NCBI GenBank assembly: GCA_026418535.1
Contig: JAOABC010000005.1
Coordinates: 1-64,000 of the forward strand
Source of the DNA: Hydrogenothermaceae bacterium
GTDB taxonomy: Bacteria > Aquificota > Aquificia > Aquificales > Hydrogenothermaceae
Direction: 5' to 3'
DNA length: 64,000 nucleotides
A program made the translations under genes and the position numbers. Of the stretch, positions 50,774 through 64,000 are shown piece after piece. The notes under the pieces are model-generated. The model was not told the DNA's origin, ran no database searches, and was given only the letters and a program-made list of their open reading frames with translations. How positions within the stretch are numbered: the first letter of the stretch is position 1; every line of letters begins with the position of its first letter.

Positions 50774-51685
50774 ATGAAAAATGTCTTGGTTTTGGCTGTA
50801 GCTGGAGTGTTTGCTTCTACAGCGAACGCCTCTGATTTACTAATCTCTGTAGATGAAGCGAAAGCTCTCTTAGGTAAGGCAGTGTTCGTAAATGGAGACA
50901 AGCCAGAAGACTTTGCAAAAGGTCATATACCAGGTTCTGTTAACGCATACGCTCACGACCTGCACTACCTAAGCGACATAAAGAAATGTGCTGGCCTTCC
51001 TATGTGTGAAAAGACTGCAGAGAAGTTTATCTCTGAACTTGGAATAAGCAACAACTCTCACGTTATAGCCTACGATGATGGTAAAGGACCAAACGCTTCT
51101 GGTGTATGGTTCTTTTTATACCTATACGGTGTAGACAAAGTCCAGATGTTAGATGGTGGTTTTGCTACATGGAAAGCAAAGGGTTATGAGGTCGAGACAG
51201 GTCCTGCTAAGAAACCTACTCCAGGTAAGTTCACAGTTAAATTAAGAAAAGATATACTAGCTACCAAAGATGAAGTTCTAAAAGCTTCTAAGGATACTAA
51301 CTACGTTGTTCTAGATGCAAGAAGATTTGAAGAGTACACAGGTAAAACTCTGCTTGATGCTTTAGAATCTCCAGGAAAACATATACAGGTTGCCAGGGGT
51401 GGACACATCCCAGGAGCTAAGTTCTTTGAGTGGAAAAAGATAGCAGGAAACCCTAACGGTGAAGCTGATAAGCCTCTCTTTAAGCCTGCTGATAAAATCA
51501 AGAAAGACTTAGAGAAAGCTGGTATTACTCCGGATAAAACTGTCATTTCTTACTGTCACGTTGGCCTTGGAAGGGGTTCTTTCGTGTATGCAGCCCTAAA
51601 ACTTGCAGGTTATCAAAAATCTAAAGTTTACGTAGGTTCTTGGGACGAATGGGGTAATGACCAATCTCTTCCTATCGAACAGTAA
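50774..51685 (+). CDS. Exported two-domain rhodanese (thiosulfate or polysulfide sulfurtransferase)
   Basis: A 303-residue periplasmic sulfurtransferase. Signal peptide about residues 1-19 (MKNVLVLAVAGVFASTANA). The N-terminal rhodanese domain (about 20-145) has no Cys at the active loop: YDDGKGPNASG. The C-terminal domain (about 155-303) has the reactive Cys261 in ISYCHVGLGRGSF. This inactive/active tandem is normal for SseA/TST enzymes. The active loop ending GLGRG rather than GSGVTA sets it apart from MST-type enzymes. Leading gene of cluster A, but followed by an intrinsic terminator, so it may be made in excess over the downstream genes. Confidence 0.9.
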   Translation: MKNVLVLAVAGVFASTANASDLLISVDEAKALLGKAVFVNGDKPEDFAKGHIPGSVNAYAHDLHYLSDIKKCAGLPMCEKTAEKFISELGISNNSHVIAYDDGKGPNASGVWFFLYLYGVDKVQMLDGGFATWKAKGYEVETGPAKKPTPGKFTVKLRKDILATKDEVLKASKDTNYVVLDARRFEEYTGKTLLDALESPGKHIQVARGGHIPGAKFFEWKKIAGNPNGEADKPLFKPADKIKKDLEKAGITPDKTVISYCHVGLGRGSFVYAALKLAGYQKSKVYVGSWDEWGNDQSLPIEQ

Positions 51686-51746: not shown

Positions 51747-52883
51747 ATGGATCATTCTGAATATCTCATAAAAGGTATCATAATGGGTGCTCTCTTTGGA
51801 GTAGTCCTGTTTAAGGTTGGGGCAGTCAGATACTCAAGAGTTGAGGGTATGCTCCTACTGAGGGACCTTAAAATAATGAAGTTTGCCTTTACCGGAATAG
51901 CCACAGCATCCATCATATACGGACTAGCTGCAATATTCGGTTTTACTGAAAGTAGTAACCTCGCTCCAAGGGTTATGGGATATCTAGGGATAGCACATGT
52001 TATAGGTGGTATCATGTTTGGTATAGCTATGGCTTCTGCGGGCTTTTGTCCTGGAACGTGTGTGGCCAGAGTTGGAGCTGGTAAGTTTTTATCTATAGCA
52101 GGAGTATTAGGTCTTGTGGTTGGTATACTTTTGTATAACTCAATCCAGCCATCTTTGGTAGAAGCAGGCATACTTGGGCATTCAGTCGACATCACGCTGT
52201 ACGGTGTTTTAGGAGTGCCTTACGGACCCTTAGCTGTGGCATGGGGTATCCTTTTCTTAGTGTTTGCTATCATAGCGGATTACTTAGACCCTGCTAAAAA
52301 GCTTTACCAAGAGGAAGAGTATAGGAGTTTAAGTGAGAAGATAATAAAGGGAGAGTGGCATTGGGCTGTTGGTGGTGTGGCTGCAGGCTCAATAATAGCC
52401 ATAGTAACGTCCCATGGAGAGTATTTAGGTTTCTCCGGAGCTTTACTCTCACTTGTTGGATGGATCGGACATGAGATAGGATATCCCCTCTCTAACGCCC
52501 TACCAAAGATAAACGAAAGCACTATGTATAGAGCTGGACTACTTATAGGTGTTCTACCTGGAGCACTAATAGCCGCCCTCATATCTGGTAGATTTAAGTT
52601 CGACCCTGTACCTCCTGCATTTGCTCAGGGAGTAGCCCCTATACCTGTAGTCAGGATAGTTTTGGTCTTCTTTGCTGGACTTTTCCTTGCACTGGGAGCT
52701 ATGATAGGTGGAGGTTGCACAACTGGAGCTTTCTTAGCTGCCTATCCTACACTGTCTGTAGGCAGTATGATTATGTCCGCTACTTACTTTGTAGTTGGAG
52801 TTATAACTGCGAACCTGATATACATGGGAAGATGGGAAAGGTTTATCCAGGCTAAGAAGTCTTCTGACGAAGTATACGACTGA
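51747..52883 (+). CDS. YeeE/YedE-family sulfur-compound transporter
   Basis: A 378-residue inner-membrane protein with about nine to ten helices in two pseudo-repeats. Each repeat carries the family's Cys motif: GFCPGTCVARVGAG (about residues 98-111) and GGGCTTGAFLAAYPTL (about 334-349). In the characterised thiosulfate transporter TsuA these Cys line the conduction path. So uptake or release of thiosulfate or another sulfur species across the inner membrane is likely. Placement between a rhodanese and a membrane-anchored rhodanese-fold protein supports a sulfur-relay role. Good AGGAGG ribosome site upstream. Confidence 0.87.
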   Translation: MDHSEYLIKGIIMGALFGVVLFKVGAVRYSRVEGMLLLRDLKIMKFAFTGIATASIIYGLAAIFGFTESSNLAPRVMGYLGIAHVIGGIMFGIAMASAGFCPGTCVARVGAGKFLSIAGVLGLVVGILLYNSIQPSLVEAGILGHSVDITLYGVLGVPYGPLAVAWGILFLVFAIIADYLDPAKKLYQEEEYRSLSEKIIKGEWHWAVGGVAAGSIIAIVTSHGEYLGFSGALLSLVGWIGHEIGYPLSNALPKINESTMYRAGLLIGVLPGALIAALISGRFKFDPVPPAFAQGVAPIPVVRIVLVFFAGLFLALGAMIGGGCTTGAFLAAYPTLSVGSMIMSATYFVVGVITANLIYMGRWERFIQAKKSSDEVYD

Positions 52884-52902: not shown

Positions 52903-53043
52903 ATGAACACGACTGAGAGAGTTTTGTACTGGATAGGAATAATAGTTTTAATAGTGGCTATAATTGGAACAAGCAAGCAGACATCTGAACTGGAAAAAAA
53001 AGAGTCTTCCACTTCGGCGACACAAACTGGAGGTAATCAGTAA
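52903..53043 (+). CDS. 46-residue single-helix membrane peptide
   Basis: ATG at 52903 to TAA at 53043, whose last base is shared with the next ATG (TAATG). The peptide begins MNTTERVLYWIGIIVLIVAI, with one hydrophobic helix (about residues 7-22) and a polar Ser/Thr/Gln-rich tail. An AGAGAG-type ribosome site lies just upstream. Tight coupling to the rhodanese-fold gene and absence of any other frame in the gap support expression. The N-terminal helix and charge pattern resemble those of the next protein (MNPKVERVVYIVVILVLS), so the two may share membrane targeting or be related. Function unknown. Confidence 0.7.
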   Translation: MNTTERVLYWIGIIVLIVAIIGTSKQTSELEKKESSTSATQTGGNQ

Positions 53044-53534
53044 TGAACCCTAAAGTTGAGAGAGTTGTATATATAGTGGTTATTCTAGTTCTCTCTGTCT
53101 ACCTTATCTTCTTAGGGAAGAAGCAGACAGAAATTCAGAGGAATATACCCATAACAGCCCAGGAGCTCTACGATAAACTATCAAGCCCAAAGCTGAAAGT
53201 TCAGATAATAGATGTGAGAGAACTTACATCTGATGACGATGTGGGTGGTTATGAAGACTCAAGAGTACCTGGAGCTATTCCATTCCCAGGATGTGATGAG
53301 TCAAAGATGACATCTGAAAGCTTACAAGAAGCTCTTAAAAGGATAAACCCTTATGCCTATACTGTAATTGTATCTACAAACGGGAACAAAGAGATTTTTG
53401 AGAAATGTGCTCAAAAGTTCAAAAATGTCCAAAACCTTCAAGGTGGAATGGCTGCTTGGCAAGAGGCAGGTCTTCCTGACGAATCAGGTGAATATGTACC
53501 ACCTAAAGCTGGCGGTGGTGGTGGATGTTTATAA
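53043..53534 (+). CDS. Membrane-anchored rhodanese-fold protein with C-terminal Gly-rich Cys arm
   Basis: A 163-residue protein: membrane anchor (about residues 8-24), rhodanese fold (about 37-148: VQIIDVRELT through NLQGGMAAWQEAG), then a tail PPKAGGGGGCL. The position that normally holds the catalytic Cys, after the strand YTVIV, reads STNGNKE, so classical sulfurtransferase chemistry is not expected there. Cys84 and Cys122 lie elsewhere and Cys162 is the penultimate residue at the end of five Gly. The flexible Gly run ending in Cys resembles the SoxY carrier arm (GGCGG). A very similar PKAG...GCL tail ends the protein at 58784. Carrier function is inference. The domain probably faces the periplasm. 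Confidence 0.85.
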   Translation: MNPKVERVVYIVVILVLSVYLIFLGKKQTEIQRNIPITAQELYDKLSSPKLKVQIIDVRELTSDDDVGGYEDSRVPGAIPFPGCDESKMTSESLQEALKRINPYAYTVIVSTNGNKEIFEKCAQKFKNVQNLQGGMAAWQEAGLPDESGEYVPPKAGGGGGCL

Positions 53535-53561: not shown

Positions 53562-56450
53562 ATGGCAATATCAAGAAGGGACTTTTTAAAAGTTATGTCC
53601 GCAACAGGTGCGGCTACTACCCTTGGAACTTCTTCTGCGTTTGCTAAAAACAGCGCTATGATAATAGAAAACCCAAGGGAGAAGTATCCGAACAGCTCTT
53701 TTGTAGAGAACATGTACAGGAAGGAGTTTGCTTATACATACGGTAGAAAGGAGGAACACGGAACTGCCTACCACTGTGTCAACTGCCAAGGAAACTGTGC
53801 ATGGGACGTATGGGTTCAAAATGGTATCGTCACAAGAGAGAACCAAGCGGCAAACTACCCTCTCCTTAACCCAAAAATACCAGATGCAAACCCAAGGGGT
53901 TGCAATAAAGGTGTCCAGCATTCTCAGGTTATGTACGAGAAGGACAGAATACTGTACCCTATGAAAAGAGTTGGAGAAAGAGGGGAAGGTAAGTGGAAGA
54001 GAATAAGCTGGGATGAAGCAATAACAGAGGTCGCAACGAAGATATACGAGACTATGCTAACGGTAGGACCTCAAGGAAACTATATTCACCTAGGAGCAGG
54101 AATGCTCACAGAAGCAAGAGCAGCTTCCGGAAAAAGACTTGGAACTCTACTCGGTGCTGTCAGGCCTTACATAGCTTCTTACGTTGGTGATATGTTTCCC
54201 GGAGTATCCTTAGTATACGGAGAAGGTAATATAGGTTTTTCTTATGACTTTGTTTATACCGCAAACGTCCAGATCTGGTGGGGACAGGATCCTAACAAAT
54301 CTAGAATTCCAGATGCTCACTGGGTATGGGAAGGTAAGTACAACGGCGGTAAGGTGATCGTTATAACTCCAGATTACAATGCAACCTGTAAGAGTGCAGA
54401 CCTCTGGGTTCCAGTTAGGGCAGGATACGATGGTTTCTTAGCGATGTCTATCATAAACGAGATAATCCAGAAAAAACTCTACAAGCCAAACTTCATAAAA
54501 ACCTTCACAGACCTACCTTTATTAGTCAGGTTAGACAACAAGAAGCTTCTTAGACTTTCAGACATAGACACTAAGGAGCCTATGTTCGATAAGGAAATAT
54601 TCCACAATATGGAAGAGAAAGCTCATGGAAAGCACTTTGAAGAACATGAAGTATTCTTATCTTACAACCTGAAAAACGGAAAGCTAACTGTTATGCCTGG
54701 TTCTGAAGGAAACCCGGTGAAAACATTAAGATTAAAGGATGTAGGTTGGGATATAGACCCTGCATTGGAGGGAGTTTACGAAGTCAAGTTGAAGGATGGC
54801 TCTAAAGTGAAAGTGACCCCTGTGTTTGAACTCGCCAAGGCAGAGGCTCAGAAGTTCGCAGCAGAGAAGGTGTTCAAACTTACGAACGTCCATCCAAAGA
54901 TAGTAGAACAGTTAGCTAAAGATATAGCTCTTCCAAAGGTTGTAACTATATCTATGGGATTTACTATAGGAAAGTACTTCAACGGTATGCTTGCTCAAAG
55001 AGCTATAGCATCTATAACTCCTCTCTGTGGAAGACTTGGACCTTACGGTGGATTTAACTCTGAGAACGAGTGGTCCATAAGTGGTCTTGATATTATCTCT
55101 GGATTTGGTGGAAAGTATCAGCATAGGTTTGCCTCTGGTTTCGTGAGTGAATTCGTCCTTGGAAATATGATGCAAGACTTCGATAAACTATACGAAGAAG
55201 ACACATTCAAACAAGTTATGGGAATGTCTAAGGCTGAGTACAAGAAGAAAGTGGAAGAGATGCTCTCTATGTCAGAAGGAGACAAGGGTGTTAATAAAGG
55301 AAAACCGTATTGGAACGATGTTCAGACATTCCTACTATTTGCAGATGCAAGGTTCAGAAGGAACAAAGGAACTTCTTACAAAAAGGCCTTCTTAGAGAAG
55401 GCTAAGTTCATAGCATACGTTGACTTTAGGATGTCTGACTTTGCAAACTACGCTGATATACTCCTACCTGCAAAATCCCACTACGAGGTATGGGATCTAA
55501 GGACAAATCCTGGATATCACAGGTTTGCAAACCTAGCTCATCCACCTGCAAACTTAAAACCTGTTGGAGAAGCTAAATCGGAGTGGGAGATATGCACTCT
55601 TATAGTAGAGAAACTCCAAGAGATAGCTATGAAGAAGTACAAAGAAACTGGAGACAAAAAGTACATAAAAATACCTGATCCTCAATTCTCAAAAACAGGA
55701 TACAGAGACCTTGACAAGGTAGTAGAAGAGTTTACGATAAACGGAAAACTCAGGACAGATAAAGATGCTGTTGAGTTAGCTCTCGAACACACAGAGCAGT
55801 TCAAACCAAACACTATAGAGTCTATGTTCAAAAGGGGTGGATACCTTACATTGAACGAGAAAGGCGGAAAAACATCTCCTCTGTATCCAGACAAACCTTA
55901 CAACTTCTTTGAGAACAATCTATACCTGTACGAACATTTCGAGACACTATCCGGAAGGATAACTTACTACGTAGACCACGAACTTTGGATACAGGAAGGA
56001 GCCAATGTCCCAACGGCAAAAGAACCAATCAGACCAAGAAAATATCCATTTGTTCTACTTACACCTCATGCAAGATGGTCTATCCACTCCACCTACAAGA
56101 CTTCTACTATACTCATGAGACTCCAAAGAGGAAAGCCTTATATCATGATAAATCCAGAGATAGCTAAGAAGAAAGGCATAAAAGATGGAGACGAGGTAAG
56201 ACTGTATAACTCTCTAGGTGAGTTTTACGCTATGGCTAAAGTATATCCATCTTGTCCTAAAGATGCTGTCATACTAGAGCACGGATGGGAACCTTTCTTC
56301 TACAAGTTCAGAAAAGGACACAACGAGACTGTAGCGTCTCCACTAAACCTACTTGAGCTATCAGACGGTTGGGGACATCTTAAGTTCGGTGGAAATTGGG
56401 ACGGAAACCAACACGCTTATGAGACTTCTTTAGATATAGAAAAAGTTTAA
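53562..56450 (+). CDS. Type II DMSO reductase family molybdopterin catalytic subunit (NarG/EbdA/SerA-like), Tat-exported
   Basis: A 962-residue Mo-bis-PGD enzyme. A Tat signal (SRRDFLK at residues 4-10) gives periplasmic export. The FS0 cluster ligands are His71, Cys75, Cys79 and Cys114 (H-x3-C-x3-C...C), with His first as in nitrate reductase NarG and ethylbenzene, dimethylsulfide, selenate and chlorate enzymes. Asp210 in GDMFPG lies where this family places its Mo-ligating Asp (inference). The C-terminal molybdopterin-dinucleotide domain covers about 835-962. It forms a complex with the next two genes. The substrate is not deducible. The sulfur-handling neighbours point to a sulfur compound rather than nitrate. 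No NarJ/TorD-like chaperone gene is adjacent, which is unusual. Confidence 0.92.
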   Translation: MAISRRDFLKVMSATGAATTLGTSSAFAKNSAMIIENPREKYPNSSFVENMYRKEFAYTYGRKEEHGTAYHCVNCQGNCAWDVWVQNGIVTRENQAANYPLLNPKIPDANPRGCNKGVQHSQVMYEKDRILYPMKRVGERGEGKWKRISWDEAITEVATKIYETMLTVGPQGNYIHLGAGMLTEARAASGKRLGTLLGAVRPYIASYVGDMFPGVSLVYGEGNIGFSYDFVYTANVQIWWGQDPNKSRIPDAHWVWEGKYNGGKVIVITPDYNATCKSADLWVPVRAGYDGFLAMSIINEIIQKKLYKPNFIKTFTDLPLLVRLDNKKLLRLSDIDTKEPMFDKEIFHNMEEKAHGKHFEEHEVFLSYNLKNGKLTVMPGSEGNPVKTLRLKDVGWDIDPALEGVYEVKLKDGSKVKVTPVFELAKAEAQKFAAEKVFKLTNVHPKIVEQLAKDIALPKVVTISMGFTIGKYFNGMLAQRAIASITPLCGRLGPYGGFNSENEWSISGLDIISGFGGKYQHRFASGFVSEFVLGNMMQDFDKLYEEDTFKQVMGMSKAEYKKKVEEMLSMSEGDKGVNKGKPYWNDVQTFLLFADARFRRNKGTSYKKAFLEKAKFIAYVDFRMSDFANYADILLPAKSHYEVWDLRTNPGYHRFANLAHPPANLKPVGEAKSEWEICTLIVEKLQEIAMKKYKETGDKKYIKIPDPQFSKTGYRDLDKVVEEFTINGKLRTDKDAVELALEHTEQFKPNTIESMFKRGGYLTLNEKGGKTSPLYPDKPYNFFENNLYLYEHFETLSGRITYYVDHELWIQEGANVPTAKEPIRPRKYPFVLLTPHARWSIHSTYKTSTILMRLQRGKPYIMINPEIAKKKGIKDGDEVRLYNSLGEFYAMAKVYPSCPKDAVILEHGWEPFFYKFRKGHNETVASPLNLLELSDGWGHLKFGGNWDGNQHAYETSLDIEKV

Positions 56451-56464
56451 GAGGAGGAATATAG

Positions 56465-57616
56465 ATGTCAAAAAGACAGCTTGCTATGGTTATGGATTTA
56501 AATAAATGTATAGGTTGCCAAACCTGTACTGTTGCATGTAAGACCCAGTGGACCAACAGAAACGGAAGAGAATATATGTACTGGAACAACGTTGAAACTC
56601 ATCCAGGGTATGGATACCCAAGGAACTGGATGGAAGCAGGTGGTGGTTTCGACGAAAGCGGTAATCTTAGGGATGGTATTATTCCGGATATGGTGTTAGA
56701 CTACGGTGTTCCGTGGGATTACAACCACGATGAACTGATAAACGGCTCTCTCTTCCAGGCAAAGACGGACAGTTTAGAGTGGGGTCCGAACTGGGACGAG
56801 GATGTAGGTGGTGGAGAGTATCCAAACTCCTACTTCTTCTACATACCAAGGATATGTAACCACTGCTCTAACCCTGGCTGTCTGGCAGCATGTCCAAGGG
56901 AGGCTATATTCAAGAGAGAGCAGGATGGTATAGTTTTAGTTGACCTTGAGAGATGTCAAGGATACAGATACTGTATAGCAGGATGTCCTTACAAGAAAAT
57001 ATACTTCAACCCTAAAATATCTAAATCTGAAAAATGCATATTCTGCTTCCCAAGGGTAGAGAAGGGTCTACCTCCAGCCTGTGCTCATCAGTGTGTAGGT
57101 AGAATAAGATTTGTAGGGTTCTTAGATGACGAAGCAGGTCAAGTTTATAAGTTAGTCCACAAATACAAAGTAGCTCTTCCTTTAAGACCTGACTTTGGAA
57201 CACAACCAAACGTATACTACGTTCCACCTCTGTTTGAGCCACCAAAGTTCGATGAGAACATGCAGCCTGTAGAAGGTTCAAGAAGAACACCTATCGAATA
57301 CTTAGAGCTCCTCTTTGGAAAGGAGGTACACACAGCCCTTGAAACTCTCAGGAAAGAGCAAGAGAAGAGAGCAAGAGGAGAAGAGTCTGAGCTTATGGAC
57401 ATCTTGATAGCGTACTCCCACAGAGACATGTTCAGACTGGACAACAACTACTATCAACAACAGGTGGACAAAAAACTAAAAGGCTCTGAATTCTTCAAAG
57501 TTATAGACCAAAGATACCTACAGGGTGCAAATACCAAAAGAGTGGAGATAAAGGATTACACATTCCACGAGAAGATGCTCCCCCAAAAGGATAGCTCCAA
57601 AGCTAAACACCATTAA
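56465..57616 (+). CDS. Four-cluster ferredoxin subunit of the type II molybdoenzyme (NarH/EbdB/SerB-like)
   Basis: A 383-residue electron-transfer subunit. Cys sets: CIGCQTCTVAC (residues 15-25), CNHCSNPGCLAACP, CQGYRYCIAGCPYKK and CIFCFPRVEKGLPPACAHQC. The third set lacks one Cys, with aromatic residues in its place. That matches the [3Fe-4S] site of this subunit family, where Trp is usual and Tyr is seen here. No signal peptide, so it should be carried out by the Tat signal of the catalytic subunit. It lies 14 bases after it. The C-terminal charged tail (KDSSKAKHH) is metal-binding in appearance but not conserved to my knowledge. Confidence 0.94.
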   Translation: MSKRQLAMVMDLNKCIGCQTCTVACKTQWTNRNGREYMYWNNVETHPGYGYPRNWMEAGGGFDESGNLRDGIIPDMVLDYGVPWDYNHDELINGSLFQAKTDSLEWGPNWDEDVGGGEYPNSYFFYIPRICNHCSNPGCLAACPREAIFKREQDGIVLVDLERCQGYRYCIAGCPYKKIYFNPKISKSEKCIFCFPRVEKGLPPACAHQCVGRIRFVGFLDDEAGQVYKLVHKYKVALPLRPDFGTQPNVYYVPPLFEPPKFDENMQPVEGSRRTPIEYLELLFGKEVHTALETLRKEQEKRARGEESELMDILIAYSHRDMFRLDNNYYQQQVDKKLKGSEFFKVIDQRYLQGANTKRVEIKDYTFHEKMLPQKDSSKAKHH

Positions 57617-57670: not shown

Positions 57671-58771
57671 ATGAAGTTAAAACTGTTCACCTTAGGTTTG
57701 GTAGGGTGTGTAAGCCTGTCTTTCGCTGACGGTTTTGAGGAGGATGTTATAAACGTAAAGAAGACACAGAAGTTTAATCCTTCAGCTTTAGAGTTTAAAA
57801 AAGTGAAAGTCTATCCACAGACATCCGTTAGCCTGAACGACAAGAACACTAAAGATGCTCAGATACCAGAGTTAGAAGTCGGCTCTGTTACTACCGGAAA
57901 AGAGCTTTACGTAGTAGTGAAGTGGAAAGATTATACCCACTCCGTTCAACCACTTTTTACAACTAACAGATACGGAGATGGTATATCTATCCAGTTTCCT
58001 CTCTCCTACGGTAAAGGAAAAACTCTCCCCTACATAGGTATGGGTAATGAAAAAAATCTGGTTGTAGTCTATCTCAAGAAGAACGTTGAAAACAGAGATT
58101 ATGTAAAGTCCTTTATCTCTGAAGGCTTTGGGTCTCTTACAGAGACTTCATATAAAGACTTTAGCTTAAGTTTAGACTACGATAAGGAGAAGAAAGAGTA
58201 TACAGCAGTACTGAAAAAAGCTATAAAACCTACAGACTTGAAGACTGGAATAATACCTGTATCCTTCGCAGTCTGGGATGGAGATAACGGGAATAGGGAT
58301 GGCGTGAAGAATATATCTAACTGGAAGTTTTTGAAGGTGGAGGGTGTCAATCCAGATAAAGGTTACATTTCCTATCTATCTTGGGGATACGGGAAGATAG
58401 GTAATCCAGAGAGAGGTAGAGAACTCCTTATCCAGAACGGCTGTATAGGTTGCCATAACTTTGCAGACCAGAAAAACGCTCCGGAAGGTTTGGCCCCGAA
58501 CTTATCTAGGATAGGGGGATACAATAACCCAGTATACCTGAAAGAGTCTATAGTTAACCCCTCTGCTGTAGTTATAAGAAACCTTAATATCAACAGACAC
58601 TACGATAAATCCCAAGCTCCGGATAAGAACGGTGCTTATCCTAACAACGAGATGTACAGCTGGTACACAAAAGATAACAAAGGCAAAAAAACATCCAAGA
58701 TGCCTCCTTATAACTACTTAGCAGAGCAAGATTTAAACGATATGGTTGAATATTTAAAGAGTTTAAGATAG
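57671..58771 (+). CDS. EbdC-like heme b subunit fused to cytochrome c
   Basis: A 366-residue periplasmic protein with signal peptide (about 1-19). Residues about 25-225 are the EbdC/DdhC/SerC-type heme b domain: the WDGDNGNRDGVKNISNW segment is typical, with Met124 and Lys213 as candidate axial ligands. Residues about 240-366 are a cytochrome c domain: heme attachment CIGCH at 258-262 and distal Met344 in SKMPPYNYL. Known gamma subunits of this family have only the heme b part, and pass electrons to a separate cytochrome c, so the fusion builds the acceptor in. Follows the Fe-S subunit by 54 bases with its own GGAGG. Confidence 0.88.
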   Translation: MKLKLFTLGLVGCVSLSFADGFEEDVINVKKTQKFNPSALEFKKVKVYPQTSVSLNDKNTKDAQIPELEVGSVTTGKELYVVVKWKDYTHSVQPLFTTNRYGDGISIQFPLSYGKGKTLPYIGMGNEKNLVVVYLKKNVENRDYVKSFISEGFGSLTETSYKDFSLSLDYDKEKKEYTAVLKKAIKPTDLKTGIIPVSFAVWDGDNGNRDGVKNISNWKFLKVEGVNPDKGYISYLSWGYGKIGNPERGRELLIQNGCIGCHNFADQKNAPEGLAPNLSRIGGYNNPVYLKESIVNPSAVVIRNLNINRHYDKSQAPDKNGAYPNNEMYSWYTKDNKGKKTSKMPPYNYLAEQDLNDMVEYLKSLR

Positions 58772-58783
58772 GAGGTTGATGAC

Positions 58784-59182
58784 ATGAAAAAGTTGATCCT
58801 AACCTGTTTAGCTATCACATCTATACAACTCTCATCCGTTGCAGCGAATGTGGGAGAGGAGATTGAACTATCAAGTGCAGTTATAACAGCTAAATCCTGT
58901 GCAGAGAAAGCAAAGGAAACCGGGAGTTATGAACTTCTATCATCCTGTCCTCCAGTTGAGGCAGAAAAAACCGGATACGTCATCTATGATGTTACAGAGA
59001 ACACTTTCTACTCTATAGCACCTAGAAATATATACATCTTCGAACTCGACCATGGTTTTGGTGGAAACATAGATGTAACTGGAAAAGTTGTAGACAAACA
59101 GGGAGAACTTCCTGTTATAGAGGCTCAGCAGTACAAGATATCACCAAAACCAAAAGCCGGGTTTTTCAAAGGATGCTTATAA
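58784..59182 (+). CDS. Exported small protein with C-terminal PKAGFFKGCL tail
   Basis: A 132-residue protein with a signal peptide (about residues 1-21, cleavage after VAA). The mature part has Cys39 and Cys55, then a beta-rich segment (GYVIYDVTENTFYSIAP, FELDHGFGGNIDVTGKVV) resembling an OB-type barrel. It ends PKAGFFKGCL with Cys131 penultimate. I recognise no named family. The last ten residues match the end of the rhodanese-fold protein at 53043 in PKAG and GCL although the bodies are unrelated. It is the last gene of cluster A, 12 bases after the cytochrome fusion and before a terminator. A sulfur-carrier or heme-handling accessory role is possible. Confidence 0.75.
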   Translation: MKKLILTCLAITSIQLSSVAANVGEEIELSSAVITAKSCAEKAKETGSYELLSSCPPVEAEKTGYVIYDVTENTFYSIAPRNIYIFELDHGFGGNIDVTGKVVDKQGELPVIEAQQYKISPKPKAGFFKGCL

Positions 59183-59310: not shown

Positions 59311-59946
59311 ATGAAACTTGGTTTCTTGGTTGATTTGAGTAGATGTATGGGCTGTATGGCCTGTGCTGTTTCCTGTAAAGCGGAAAACGATGTTCCTCTT
59401 AACAGTTGGAGACTCAGAGTTAAGTACATAGACCAGGGAGAGTTCCCGGAAGTAAAGAGACACTTTGTCCCACTTAGATGTAACCACTGTGAAAATGCAC
59501 CTTGTGAGAGGATATGTCCAGTAAGCGCTCTCCACTACCTACCAAACGGCATCGTAAACGTAGACCACAACAGATGTATAGGTTGTGCCTCTTGTATGAT
59601 GGCATGTCCTTATAACGCCATATACATAGACCCGATAACCAACTCAGCAGATAAATGCACATACTGTGCCCATAGGATAGAAGTAGGTATGATGCCTGCC
59701 TGCGTTGTTGCCTGCCCAACCCATGCAAACATCTTCGGAGACCTTGACGACCCAGAGAGCGAGATATCCAAATACTTAAAAGAGCATAAAGACGTGATGG
59801 TAAGAAAACCAGAACTGAACACAAAACCTAAACACTTCTACGTTAGAGGATCTACAGTTGCACTTGACCCTCTTGCTTCTGAGAGACCCGAAGGTTATAC
59901 ACTCTTTACAGAAGTTAAATTTTTAGACCATATAGGAGGGCACTGA
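59311..59946 (+). CDS. Four [4Fe-4S] ferredoxin subunit, PsrB/PhsB/TtrB-like
   Basis: A 211-residue electron-transfer subunit, from the ATG at 59311 which has GGAGG eight bases upstream. An in-frame earlier start at 59272 overlaps the promoter region. Cys sets: CMGCMACAVSC, CNHCENAPCERICP, CIGCASCMMACPYNA and CTYCAHRIEVGMMPACVVACP. This is the normal DmsB/PsrB pattern, with all sixteen Cys kept, unlike the cluster A subunit. It links the catalytic subunit at 60846 with the membrane quinone subunit. Two bases separate it from the NrfD-like gene. Confidence 0.94.
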   Translation: MKLGFLVDLSRCMGCMACAVSCKAENDVPLNSWRLRVKYIDQGEFPEVKRHFVPLRCNHCENAPCERICPVSALHYLPNGIVNVDHNRCIGCASCMMACPYNAIYIDPITNSADKCTYCAHRIEVGMMPACVVACPTHANIFGDLDDPESEISKYLKEHKDVMVRKPELNTKPKHFYVRGSTVALDPLASERPEGYTLFTEVKFLDHIGGH

Positions 59947-59948
59947 TC

Positions 59949-60830
59949 ATGCTTGGAGCAGAAGTAACCTTTGATGTAGCACTGCCAAAAGTAGTATGGG
60001 GATGGCTCGTTTCCACCAACATGTGGGCTAAGAGCATAGCTACCGGAAGTTTCTTACTTGGACTGTACTTTATCAAAAAGTATCCGGATAATGATAACTT
60101 CTTCAGGAAATGGATACCTATACTAGGTCTGATATTCATAGGCATAACCCTCTTGGTCACAGTATTAGACTTACACCATATGTTCAGGTTCTGGAAGATA
60201 TTCCTGTTTGCTCACTTTACATCCGCAGTTACTCTCGGAGCATGGGTGGTATCAGGATTTGTAGTTATCTTACTTATATCTTTCTGGTCTTGGGCTAGTG
60301 GAAACAAGAAACTGTTTGATAGATTTATGATACCTGGAGCAGTCCTCGCATTCTTCTCGACTATATACACAGCAGGGATCATGGGACAGTCAACTGCAAG
60401 GGAGATATGGATATTCCCAGCTGAGATGATACAGATGCTACTCTCTGCAGCGATAGCAGGTTCTGCAGCTTACCTGATAGTCATGTTCTTGTACAACATC
60501 CAGAATGAGAGTATAAAGAGAGAGTTAGGATACATACTCTTAGGTTCTGCGTTCTTATCCGGTTTGATGTACGTAGGGGAGCTAATGTTTGCAAAGATGC
60601 ACAGTGAGTTCTCCTACGAAGTTGCCAAGATACTCGCCTTCGGAGAGCTTGCTCCATTCTTCTGGATAGGTATGATACTTACGTTCGTAGTCCCTATGGT
60701 GATGGTAGGGATAGCTAACGAGAAGAAGAAGTACGAGTACTTACCGATGGCAGGAGCATCAGCGATATTTGGGCTCTGGTTTATAAAACACGCATGGCTT
60801 TTAGGTCCACAGATGTTGCCATTAAGCTAA
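59949..60830 (+). CDS. NrfD/PsrC-like membrane quinone subunit
   Basis: A 293-residue integral membrane protein with about eight helices and no heme-ligand pattern. The SAIATGSFLLGLYF-like start (AKSIATGSFLLGLYF here), the central LDLHHMFRFWKIF loop and WFIKHAWLLGPQ end match the NrfD family subunits that exchange electrons with quinones in polysulfide, thiosulfate, tetrathionate and sulfite enzymes. Couples the periplasmic enzyme of cluster B to the quinone pool. Starts two bases after the Fe-S gene and is followed by GGAGG and the catalytic subunit. Confidence 0.9.
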   Translation: MLGAEVTFDVALPKVVWGWLVSTNMWAKSIATGSFLLGLYFIKKYPDNDNFFRKWIPILGLIFIGITLLVTVLDLHHMFRFWKIFLFAHFTSAVTLGAWVVSGFVVILLISFWSWASGNKKLFDRFMIPGAVLAFFSTIYTAGIMGQSTAREIWIFPAEMIQMLLSAAIAGSAAYLIVMFLYNIQNESIKRELGYILLGSAFLSGLMYVGELMFAKMHSEFSYEVAKILAFGELAPFFWIGMILTFVVPMVMVGIANEKKKYEYLPMAGASAIFGLWFIKHAWLLGPQMLPLS

Positions 60831-60845
60831 GAAGGAGGGCAAAAA

Positions 60846-63800
60846 ATGATAAAAACCAATAGAAGAAACTTCCTAAAGGGAGCCGCTGCAGTTATTGGTG
60901 GAGCAGCTTTAGCAAAGGGTGTGTTTGAGAAGACAGAGGCTGACAATAGAGTTGCTAACAACCAAGAGCTAACCTTTGAACCAAAACGGTTAGACTACTA
61001 TCCCCCCTTCGAAAAGTGGAATGACTGGAAAGAGCCTGCAGGAGACTACTGGAAAAAGGAAGGTGGTACCTTAAGGGATGGAGTGAAGCTTATAAACTAC
61101 ATGCTTATTCCTACAGTTTGCAATAACTGTGAAGCTGCTTGTGGTCTTACAGCATGGATAGACAAGGATACTATGACAGTAAGAAAATTCATGGGAAATC
61201 CTTTCCACAGTGGAAGTAGAGGAAGAAACTGTGCAAAGGGGTATGCAGCCCTATCCCAGATGTATGACCCAGATAGAATTCCTTTCCCTTTAAAGAGAGC
61301 TCCTGGTAGTAAGAGGGGTGAGAATAAGTGGGTCAGAACTACATGGGAAGAAGCTTTAGAGACTATTGGTAAAAGGATGAGAGAAGTCTTACTAAAAGGA
61401 GACCAGATATCTAAAAAACAGATAATGTATCATGTAGGAAGACCGAACGAGAACGGTTTCCACGTGAGAAGGGTAGTCCACAGTTGGGGAGTTGACGGAA
61501 GAAATACTCACACTAACATATGCTCCTCTAACGGAAGATTTGGAAACATCATAACTGTTGGAGATGATAGGACTTCTCCTGATTTTGCAAACTCTAGACT
61601 GATAGTACTTGTATCTTCTCACGCTGCAGATGCTGGACACTACTACCAACAACATGCAGGATATATAGCAGATGCAAGAGCAAAAGGTGCAAAACTTGTA
61701 GTCATAGACCCAAGGATGTCTAACTCTGCAGGTATAGCAGACCTCTGGATACCTGCATGGCCCGGGACTGAAGGGGCTATAAATATCGCTATGATTAGTA
61801 GACTTGTTAGAGAAGAGAAGTTCAACAAGAAGTTTGTAGAAAGGTGGTTTAACTGGAAGCAGTTCCTGTCAGCTAAAGACTACCTAAACTACCTCAAGGA
61901 GAAAGGGTCCCTCACAGAACTACCTACCGGAGAAACATTCGACAACTTTGTGGCAGTTCTAAAAGATATATACAAAGATTATACCTTTGAATGGGCCGCA
62001 CAGGAAGCAAGGATACCAGTATCTATGCTTGATAAACTCTACGAGATGATTCTCTGGGCTGGGGATAGGATAACCCAGTACCACTGGAGAGCTGTGGCAG
62101 CTGGGAACAGAGGTGGATGGATAGGAGCTGGAAGAACAGGAACAATCCTTATGGCTATGATGGGAGCACTTGGAGGACCTGGAGGAACAGGATGGTATAA
62201 GTGGCACACACTCTCCCTAGGGGATAAAGGTGGAGATTCCTGCGTGGCAGAGACTCCAGAACCTGTGAAGGCGTGGAACGAGCTACTGTGGCCACCAGAA
62301 TGGCCAATGTCCACTTATGAACTAAGCTATCTCTTGCCGCATCTACTCATGGATGATGAGTGGAGGGAAAAGTGGAAACAGAAGGGGTTGGAAATACCAG
62401 ACAAAGTAGAGGTTTGGTTCAGTAGGATATATAACCCTGTTTGGATAAACCCAGATGGATTTAGATGGGTAGAGGCTCTCGTGAGAGAGGATAAGTTTGG
62501 TCTAAATATCTACCTCTCTCCTAACTGGGGAGAAACAGCTTTCTACTGTGACTATATTCTTCCTATGGGACTAGCAGGAGAAAGATTTGACCAACAATCA
62601 GAACCTACTAAACCTGAAAAGTGGACGGTCTTTAGGCAACCTGTTCTTAGAATAGCTTTACAGAAAATGGGATGGAAGCCAAATGACCCTGCTAAGGCCA
62701 CCCTTGAAGCTCATAAAAAAGTCGGTTTTGGAGAGGTGTGGGAAGAAGATGAGTTTTTTGTAAACCTTGCTTTTGCTATCGACCCTGATGGCTCCCTCGG
62801 GATAAGAAAATACTGGGAATCCAAACAGAACCCAGGAAAACCTGTAACGATGGAAGAATACTACAATGCTGTATTCTCCAAACTTCCAAAGCTATCTCAG
62901 GTATGTCAGGAGATGGGAGTCACCCCATTTGAGTACATGAGAGATAGGGGAGCTTGGACGGAAGCAACAGACGTATATAACATCCACGAAAAGCCTCTCC
63001 CATACGATCAAGAGAAGAAAGCTTACCAGTACGAAGGAAAGTGGATACCGGAAAGTGAGATAAAGATAGAGGATGACCGCGTATACCATGTAGAGGAAAG
63101 TGGTAAGAAGCACAAGATAGGTATAGTCAAGGATGGTAAAATAATCAATGGATGGAAAACTCCTTCCGGACATATAGAGTTCTTCTCAAAGACGATGGTA
63201 GACTGGAAATGGCCAGAGTATGCTATTCCAATATACCCAAGAAACAGAGAAGACAGAAAACAGATGATACATATAGTCTCCCAAGTTCACCACGATTACA
63301 TAACTGAACCAAACGCCTTCGTTCTTAATCCGATCTATAGACTACCTTACTTAGTCCACACAAGGTCTATAAACTCTAAGTGGTGTATGGAGATAGCACA
63401 AAACCATAACCCTATATGGATACACAAAAAAGATGCTGAGAGACTTGGTATAAAGAGAGGAGACCCTATAAAATTAAGAGTTATAGATACATTAACTGGT
63501 ATAGAGACTGGTTACTTTGTTGGAATGGCCACACCTACAGAAGCTACAAGGCCTGGAGTGTTAGCATGTTCCCACCACAATGGAAGATGGAGACTGATAA
63601 ACGAGGTAAAAATTCCTGGTTTTGAGCATGAACTTGGGGTTATGAGATACGGTAGTGTACTGGTAGATATAAAATCTCAAAACGGAAAGTACTTTATGAG
63701 AACTAAAGAAGGTATTAAACCATTCAAATCATGGCAGTATCCTGAGTTTAACAAAGATACAAAGTATATTTGGTGGAAAGGAACTTCCGGGGTGTTCCAA

Positions 63801-64000
63801 AATGCTGTATTCCCTGCGAACCCAGATCCTATATCAGGTATGCACTGCTGGCACAAGAAAGTGTTAGTAGAAAAAGCTGGTCCGGAAGATAAGATAGGGG
63901 ATGTCTTTGTAGACATAAACAGAACATGGGAAGTTTACAAAGCTTGGAGAGATCAGCTAACAAGACCAGGTCCTGGTCCGGAAGGGTACAGAAGGCCAAA
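60846..64000 (+). CDS. Molybdopterin oxidoreductase catalytic subunit, Psr/Phs/Ttr/Soe-like, 3' end off the window
   Basis: At least 1051 residues are visible. Tat signal NRRNFLKG (residues 5-12). The [4Fe-4S] ligands are Cys92, Cys95, Cys99 and Cys129 (C-x2-C-x3-C), all Cys, unlike the His-first cluster A enzyme. A likely Mo-ligating Cys lies in NICSSNGRFG. C-terminal dinucleotide-binding domain begins about residue 805. Size over 1000 with gene order Fe-S, membrane, catalytic is that of tetrathionate reductase (ttrBCA) and of some sulfur reductase/SoeABC-like clusters. Substrate candidates are polysulfide, elemental sulfur, thiosulfate, tetrathionate or sulfite. Arsenate is less likely. The next residues beyond 64000 are needed to see the end. 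Confidence 0.9.
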   Translation, partial: MIKTNRRNFLKGAAAVIGGAALAKGVFEKTEADNRVANNQELTFEPKRLDYYPPFEKWNDWKEPAGDYWKKEGGTLRDGVKLINYMLIPTVCNNCEAACGLTAWIDKDTMTVRKFMGNPFHSGSRGRNCAKGYAALSQMYDPDRIPFPLKRAPGSKRGENKWVRTTWEEALETIGKRMREVLLKGDQISKKQIMYHVGRPNENGFHVRRVVHSWGVDGRNTHTNICSSNGRFGNIITVGDDRTSPDFANSRLIVLVSSHAADAGHYYQQHAGYIADARAKGAKLVVIDPRMSNSAGIADLWIPAWPGTEGAINIAMISRLVREEKFNKKFVERWFNWKQFLSAKDYLNYLKEKGSLTELPTGETFDNFVAVLKDIYKDYTFEWAAQEARIPVSMLDKLYEMILWAGDRITQYHWRAVAAGNRGGWIGAGRTGTILMAMMGALGGPGGTGWYKWHTLSLGDKGGDSCVAETPEPVKAWNELLWPPEWPMSTYELSYLLPHLLMDDEWREKWKQKGLEIPDKVEVWFSRIYNPVWINPDGFRWVEALVREDKFGLNIYLSPNWGETAFYCDYILPMGLAGERFDQQSEPTKPEKWTVFRQPVLRIALQKMGWKPNDPAKATLEAHKKVGFGEVWEEDEFFVNLAFAIDPDGSLGIRKYWESKQNPGKPVTMEEYYNAVFSKLPKLSQVCQEMGVTPFEYMRDRGAWTEATDVYNIHEKPLPYDQEKKAYQYEGKWIPESEIKIEDDRVYHVEESGKKHKIGIVKDGKIINGWKTPSGHIEFFSKTMVDWKWPEYAIPIYPRNREDRKQMIHIVSQVHHDYITEPNAFVLNPIYRLPYLVHTRSINSKWCMEIAQNHNPIWIHKKDAERLGIKRGDPIKLRVIDTLTGIETGYFVGMATPTEATRPGVLACSHHNGRWRLINEVKIPGFEHELGVMRYGSVLVDIKSQNGKYFMRTKEGIKPFKSWQYPEFNKDTKYIWWKGTSGVFQNAVFPANPDPISGMHCWHKKVLVEKAGPEDKIGDVFVDINRTWEVYKAWRDQLTRPGPGPEGYRRP

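Follow-up and report, generated by a model that had tools for sequence, protein, structure and literature searches.

A gamma subunit with heme b and heme c modules in the conserved operon of a candidate sulfur-oxidizing type II molybdenum enzyme

The closest described relatives of the chain studied here, termed gamma-c, are the heme b gamma subunits EbdC (2ivf_C), DdhC, SerC, and ClrC. These proteins resemble gamma-c in the heme b fold, the Lys and Met ligands, a gene beside those of alpha and beta, and a soluble periplasmic location. DdhC and SerC are single-domain proteins. EbdC and ClrC are likewise single-domain, whereas gamma-c has a C-terminal cytochrome c domain. In the Ideonella chlorate reductase operon, clrC is followed by a distinct gene for a c-type cytochrome, where gamma-c is fused instead, and this operon illustrates the contrast with separate cytochromes c that a preliminary description of this DNA had drawn. 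The gamma-c operon also differs from EbdC-type operons in having a rhodanese and a small secreted protein, p132.

The heme b of EbDH is ligated by Met and Lys, and the reported heme b potentials are +256 mV for EbDH and +324 mV for DMS dehydrogenase (PMC8840923). Such a high-potential heme b would favor oxidation with cytochrome c as the acceptor. Perchlorate reductase is described as having a gamma subunit with heme c (PMC8840923). The hemes do not fix the direction of the reaction, since the related type II enzymes that have a heme b gamma subunit include reductases of chlorate and selenate (PMC3578206). A fusion of heme b and heme c was predicted as early as 2013 for alt_NxrC2-4 of Nitrospina gracilis, with one to three heme c sites and a heme b domain in one chain (PMC3578206). 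These alt_NxrC proteins belong to nitrite oxidizers and are likened to gamma-c by their published description only (PMC3578206). In Kuenenia NXR (7b04), the fold of NXR-C is shared with gamma-c and a monoheme cytochrome c, NXR-T, is part of the tubules, but NXR-T forms a chain of its own, at a distance from heme b that is too great for electron transfer (PMC8387239). The fusion idea itself is therefore not new, and the preliminary description, which had noted the fusion and its ligands, is extended here by the clade that carries it, its rhodanese and p132 partners, and its complementarity with SoxC.

Architecture of the gamma-c chain

The window is the whole stretch of DNA analyzed, 64,000 nucleotides from a Hydrogenothermaceae bacterium, and its features are collected in Table 1. 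The gamma-c reading frame is uninterrupted between the ATG at 57671 and the stop at 58771, with AAGGAGG immediately 5' of it.

Table 1. Features of the gamma-c operon and its surroundings in the window
Feature	Position	Strand	Remarks
rhod2, secreted two-domain rhodanese, active-site loop YCHVGLGRG	50774..51685	+	PRK11493
YeeE/TsuA-type sulfur (thiosulfate) transporter-like protein	51747..52883	+	Pfam Sulf_transp, E 3.3e-30
rhod1, membrane-anchored rhodanese-like domain, C-terminal GGGGGCL	53043..53534	+	without the usual loop Cys
alpha subunit, 962 aa, twin-arginine signal, Mo-bis-MGD type	53562..56450	+	TIGR03479, E 3.3e-240
beta subunit, 383 aa, four-cluster ferredoxin type, without signal peptide	56465..57616	+	TIGR03478
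gamma-c subunit, 366 aa, heme b and heme c modules	57671..58771	+	Sec-type signal peptide
EbdC/NXR-C-like heme b module, residues 25-225	57743..58345	+	Z 20.5 to 2ivf_C
Met124, proposed axial heme b ligand	58040-58042	+	invariant 67/67, ClrC alignment
Lys213, proposed axial heme b ligand	58307-58309	+	invariant 67/67, ClrC alignment
Class I cytochrome c module, residues 240-366	58388..58768	+	Pfam Cytochrom_C
CIGCH heme c motif, residues 258-262	58442-58456	+	C258/C261/H262 67/67
Met344, distal ligand of heme c	58700-58702	+	66/66
p132, signal peptide, predicted OB-like fold, Cys131	58784..59182	+	C39, C55, FKGCL invariant
Second complex, Fe-S protein	59311-59946	+	adjoins core operon
Second complex, NrfD	59949-60830	+	adjoins core operon
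Second complex, Mo enzyme, 1071 aa	60846, continues past window end 64000	+	

In the N-terminal half, Pfam EB_dh matched residues 46-112 with E 1.6e-10 and 41.9 bits, over the cutoff of 33.3. NCBIfam TIGR03477 (DMSO_red_II_gam) matched residues 46-221 with E 3.8e-22, at 78.6 bits and under its cutoff of 169.85. Identity to ClrC was 25%. We class the module as a divergent relative of the EbdC-like heme b gamma subunits. A sequence search of solved structures gave NXR-C (E 6.3e-7) and EbdC (E 4.6e-4) as the top matches. An AlphaFold2 model built with 67 homologues as input reached a mean pLDDT of 89.4 and a pTM of 0.88. Foldseek matched this model to NXR-C with E 4.4e-13 and to EbdC with E 3.1e-12. 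VIA-align superposed model residues 27-225 on EbdC 2ivf_C with Z 20.5 and rmsd 2.4 over 186 aligned residues, and the model on NXR-C 7b04_C with Z 19.3, while carbohydrate-binding modules scored far lower at about Z 12; the comparison covered essentially the heme b half and barely probed the cytochrome half. The EbdC fold had been assigned to residues 25-225 in the preliminary description, and the predicted structure agrees with it rather than with a different fold.

Met124 and Lys213, previously named as candidate heme b ligands, are invariant in 67/67 gamma homologues. Lys213 aligns to EbdC residue 201 in the register of the sequence alignment. In the phmmer alignment, a gap places Met124 three residues away from the Met of EbdC, but Met124 aligns to the Met of ClrC. 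In the C-terminal half, Pfam Cytochrom_C matched residues 247-365 with E 4.9e-10 and 41 bits, over its cutoff of 21.3. Cys258, Cys261, and His262 are invariant in all 67 homologues, and Met344 is found in all 66 that reach that position, the remaining row being truncated. The earlier placement of a cytochrome c with CIGCH and a distal Met344 in residues 240-366 thus holds. BLASTP of the fused cytochrome domain against the separate Ideonella cytochrome aligned only 23 residues with E 0.002, and descent from it was not demonstrated.

Identity to the window chain ranged from 31 to 74% across the 67 aligned homologues. Since the chains are only this similar, retention of the six putative ligand residues is selective conservation. 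All six were present again in 11/11 chains of a second sample found independently of the first DNA pattern. Each of the 66 full-length homologues and each of the 11 second-sample chains combines the heme b module with a single CxxCH. A lone gene fusion or an annotation error is ruled out by this shared two-module architecture. The presence of predicted heme b and heme c modules in one gamma chain, with an architecture fixed across the clade, is confirmed far beyond chance. The fusion proposed earlier was accordingly borne out by Pfam, NCBIfam, the AlphaFold2 fold, and the invariant ligands.

A core operon shared by at least four phyla

The alpha and beta genes lie directly upstream of gamma-c. 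Alpha carries the Mo-bis-MGD domains PF00384 and PF01568. TIGR03479 is by far its best model, yet the score of 799.8 bits is under the cutoff of 984.75, and the alphas of three relatives likewise scored 730-764 bits. We place alpha in the type II DMSO reductase family in its wider sense, as a divergent clade outside the NCBIfam TIGR03479 subfamily. The FS0 ligands H71, C75, C79, and C114 and the Mo ligand D210 were conserved in 81/81 rows. The nearest solved relative of alpha is perchlorate reductase PcrA, and its closest plasmid-borne named relative is the chlorate reductase ClrA at 36% identity, the nearest reference only among those used in the tree. Beta scored 525.4 bits with TIGR03478 (DMSO_red_II_bet), over the cutoff of 480.7. 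NarGHI nitrate reductase was considered and rejected, the operon being without NarI and the narG model scoring 225 bits against a cutoff of 1084. Subunits and model scores together rule out an identity as nitrate reductase or nitrite oxidoreductase.

Alpha has an extra Cys at position 72 (53775-53777), adjoining the FS0 His (HCVNC), in 81/81 and 11/11 sequences; the position is Ser or Gly in ClrA, Halarchaeum, and NarG. The 80 alpha loci had been picked with the peptides YHCVNCQ and NCAWDVW, so Cys72 conservation there is not independent. HCVNCQ was also found in 11/11 second-sample alphas, which came from a profile search. Alpha is split into two frames in 3/11 Campylobacterota loci (L172, L179, and L180), with beta, gamma-c, and p132 intact.

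Downstream of gamma-c, p132 matched no Pfam or NCBIfam model. Its C39, C55, and C-terminal FKGCL are invariant in 62 aligned rows, and 64/64 complete copies among the 65 homologues adjoining gamma end in FKGCL. A p132 profile matched 19/200 Campylobacterota genomes, exactly the 19 with alpha. The predicted structure is OB-like with weak matches only (best Z 7.3), SoxY is not among the matches listed, and the tail is predicted with low confidence (pLDDT 63 for the final block). SoxY has the tail GGCGG, whereas p132 ends in FKGCL. To us, the conserved tail with its penultimate Cys is reminiscent of the SoxY and DsrC carrier arms, in which the Cys is near-terminal or penultimate.

Upstream, rhod2 matched NCBIfam PRK11493 with E 2.2e-34, under the cutoff, and its loop Cys is present in 75/76 homologues. 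The transporter-like protein matched the TsuA model with E 9e-15, also under the cutoff. Signal peptides are predicted to be of Sec type for rhod2, p132, and gamma-c and of Tat type for alpha. The rhod1 tail is GGGGGCL or a variant such as SAGGGCL in 22/22 copies, and the protein lacks the loop Cys. Rhod1 is kept in Hydrogenothermaceae, Myxococcota, and Bdellovibrionota and was not found beside the Campylobacterota core. The second complex (59311..64000) is kept in Hydrogenothermaceae and some Myxococcota and does not lie beside the core in Campylobacterota. For its Mo protein (also at L031:10847-14059), the nearest NCBIfam model is PhsA, far under cutoff. Genes for a chaperone of the NarJ/TorD type and for an Fe-S protein of 360 aa are often found downstream of the core block.

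A contig scan with gamma as the query found no relative. With the alpha peptides, the scan gave 144 relatives, and the 80 loci among the matches listed came from Hydrogenothermaceae, Myxococcota, Bdellovibrionota, and many Campylobacterota, including Sulfurimonas, Sulfuricurvum, Sulfurovum, Nitratiruptor, Hydrogenimonas, Thiovulum, and Sulfurospirillum. These 80 loci held 66 full-length and 2 cut gamma genes, and 12 on short contigs were without gamma. Three MAGs from sulfidic caves (L103, L112, and L117) that bear the cluster are labelled Helicobacter cetorum, a label that is probably wrong. The shared core block consists of rhodanese, alpha, beta, gamma-c, and p132. It recurred in 11/11 second-sample loci, which represent 11 of the 19 alpha-positive Campylobacterota, namely nine SoxB-positive genomes (G220 among them, with split alpha) and two others with split alpha. 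All ten genes were together in 17/20 Hydrogenothermaceae loci fetched. Gamma-c was found in 30/37 genomes of the window's family, its own included, and in 0/24 genomes of the order outside that family.

The alphas formed one clade of 81 rows with SH-aLRT 100, in which Campylobacterota were one group and Myxococcota/Bdellovibrionota were sister to Hydrogenothermaceae; the tree was made by a quick method, has long reference branches, and leaves out EbdA, SerA, DdhA, PcrA, and NxrA. The gamma fusion and the core block, as read from these genes, are thus a property of a whole conserved clade of at least four phyla. The preliminary description was right about the fusion and both ligand pairs and too narrow in treating a single locus; the rhodanese and the Cys-tailed small protein had escaped it, and with Nitrospina alt_NxrC the fusion is not unique. 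In Aquificaceae, two proteins (L161:7629-9074 and L162:7212-8642) likewise unite a weak EB_dh-like part with a cytochrome c part, but they carry two CxxCH motifs towards the N terminus, and alpha is not directly adjacent. They adjoin another c-type cytochrome and perhaps represent a fusion in the opposite order. In the Aquificaceae NXR-like operons (L163-L165), the gamma subunits are without CxxCH, and these operons fall outside the alpha clade.

One member of the clade has been described under other names. A 2022 study reported for Thiovulum stygium an operon with six genes, comprising rhodaneses, genes given as "narH and narG", one related to cytochrome c, and one left unannotated (PMC9938260). 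It is very likely the same operon as our clade locus L121, because L121 is Thiovulum stygium, so this member had been misread as narGH (PMC9938260). Expression of the operon's rhodaneses was about 5-fold higher than that of another pair, and the study reported finding no sox or sulfite dehydrogenase genes and no known route beyond elemental sulfur (PMC9938260). A full-text literature search, with most subscription journals outside its scope, returned no rhodanese-linked type II enzyme with a fused gamma and no characterized enzyme of the gamma-c clade. Two papers discuss rhodaneses and Mo enzymes, and the gamma-c operon is absent from the available portions of their text (PMC10045233, PMC12998232).

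Distribution relative to Sox genes

Among 200 Campylobacterota genomes, alpha was present in 19, SoxC over the cutoff in 28, and SoxB (E ≤1e-100) in 29, of which 28 were over the cutoff. Eight of the 29 SoxB-positive genomes had the enzyme only, 20 had SoxC only, one had both, and none had neither. This complementarity gave a Fisher p of 2.1e-6 with kinship ignored. The eight enzyme-only genomes represent at least five alpha lineages, judged by identity, with alphas nearest loci labelled Nitratiruptor, Hydrogenimonas, Sulfuricurvum, and Aliarcobacter and one unplaced. Across all 200 genomes, alpha was associated with SoxB (p 0.0003) and showed no association with SoxC (p 0.48). Seven Campylobacterota (G194, G231, G310, G347, G369, G378, and G382) had SoxC without SoxB, in agreement with reported strains that hold soxCDY2Z2 only (PMC12403661). 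Sulfuricurvum has been reported without soxCD (PMC4288042). SoxC was described as missing from most genera, for which sulfur may accordingly not be the chief source of electrons (PMC5401914).

Sox genes were also searched for in 50 cluster-bearing genomes, the source genome and those of 49 of the 80 alpha loci. SoxC was over the cutoff in 3 of these, and SoxB was present in 15, of which 13 had no SoxC. SoxC-family matches at E 0.001 occurred in 26/50, with 23 under the cutoff and partly SorA-like. Presence of the enzyme is not bound to Sox, because 10/19 alpha-positive Campylobacterota and 35/50 cluster-bearing genomes are without SoxB.

The source genome has SoxB and no SoxC match over the cutoff. 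SoxC was over the cutoff in 0/136 Aquificota genomes, with the same model that detects it in Campylobacterota, and SoxB was present in 80. In the window's family, 26 of the 37 genomes were SoxB-positive and 24 of these had gamma-c, which also occurred in 6 of the 11 without SoxB. The 54 SoxB-positive Aquificota outside this family had no SoxC, and gamma-c was absent from the 24 genomes of the order examined. Since SoxB-positive Aquificaceae lack SoxC and gamma-c was not found in those examined, the enzyme is neither obligatory nor the only route without SoxC.

Proposed function and alternatives

Gene context, distribution, and analogy lead us to propose that gamma-c may be the subunit by which electrons leave a periplasmic sulfur dehydrogenase of the type II DMSO reductase family, an enzyme standing in for SoxCD, a reading we believe and doubt in equal measure. 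More tentatively, and with some doubt prevailing, the complex could be a second, unrelated sulfane dehydrogenase that oxidizes sulfur on the p132 Cys, is charged by the rhodanese, and replaces SoxCD in sulfur oxidizers without SoxC. Alpha would be exported by Tat with beta as a passenger, while gamma-c, p132, and rhod2 would follow the Sec route. By family analogy, electrons would pass from Mo through five Fe-S clusters (FS0-FS4) to heme b. Heme b may in turn hand them on to heme c, fused in the same chain. This route from Mo to heme c is a reasonable inference because alpha and beta lie directly upstream of gamma-c. Heme c may then reduce cytochrome c oxidase or another periplasmic acceptor. 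The substrate might be a reduced sulfur species supplied by the secreted rhodanese, perhaps held as a persulfide on the C-terminal Cys131 of p132, and its oxidation could conceivably be a six-electron reaction like that of SoxCD. The enzyme might thereby act as a sulfane dehydrogenase replacing SoxCD in SoxB-positive bacteria without SoxC and work independently of Sox elsewhere.

SoxC is a sulfite-oxidase-type Mo protein, whereas alpha belongs to the Mo-bis-MGD DMSO reductase family, so the relation would be one of analogy and not homology. The SoxC model TIGR04555 had no match in the operon, which leaves a functional likeness to SoxCD unaffected. SoxCD would resemble the proposed enzyme in reaction and electron acceptor, and the two are complementary in distribution among SoxB-positive Campylobacterota.

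The operon and the genome pattern are also compatible with a dehydrogenase of a free sulfur compound such as sulfite, thiosulfate, or polysulfide, in which the rhodanese would supply or remove the substrate and p132 would be a structural or docking protein whose Cys serves as a disulfide or metal ligand. The low-confidence prediction of the p132 tail suits this arrangement, and the SorA-like part of the SoxC-family matches in cluster-bearing genomes places sulfite chemistry nearby. However, a penultimate Cys kept across four phyla fits a swinging arm better, and the similar tail of rhod1 would be a second protein of the operon favoring such an arm. SoxC, with which the enzyme is complementary, acts on carrier-bound sulfur. 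We consider oxidation of a free compound unlikely, though deserving of weight. Sulfurtransferases such as FdhD mature some Mo enzymes, and a NarJ/TorD-type chaperone occurs in the cluster, which would accord with the rhodanese and Cys-tailed proteins serving in sulfuration of the Mo cofactor and not in catalysis. The predicted Sec and Tat signals would have these proteins meet alpha only after cofactor insertion in the cytoplasm, making a role in maturation highly improbable.

A different objection concerns the direction of electron flow. With ClrA and PcrA as the closest named and solved relatives of alpha, the enzyme could be a reductase of an oxyanion or an S- or N-oxide (chlorate, selenate, nitrate, and others), with electrons running from cytochrome c to Mo and the rhodanese protecting against or handling products. 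Alpha retains Asn N74 next to FS0, as in NarG and PcrA, a residue proposed to coordinate substrate in NXR (PMC8387239), and the narGH annotation in Thiovulum (PMC9938260) points the same way. However, the residues around the Mo Asp are unlike those of NarG, PcrA, and ClrA, NarI is missing, and the identity to ClrA is too low for transferring a substrate. The strict linkage to rhodanese and p132 and the SoxB/SoxC pattern argue for sulfur, and we judge a reductase to be rather improbable.

In gamma-c, a type II Mo enzyme is seen to have a cytochrome c built into one of its own subunits. If the sulfane dehydrogenase reading is true, a DMSO-reductase-family enzyme unrelated to SoxCD would perform this reaction with p132 as a new periplasmic carrier. 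The hosts of the cluster are bacteria from vents, sulfidic caves, and hot springs. For sulfane sulfur oxidation in Campylobacterota and Hydrogenothermaceae without SoxC, the operon provides a concrete candidate of five genes and one mutable cysteine.
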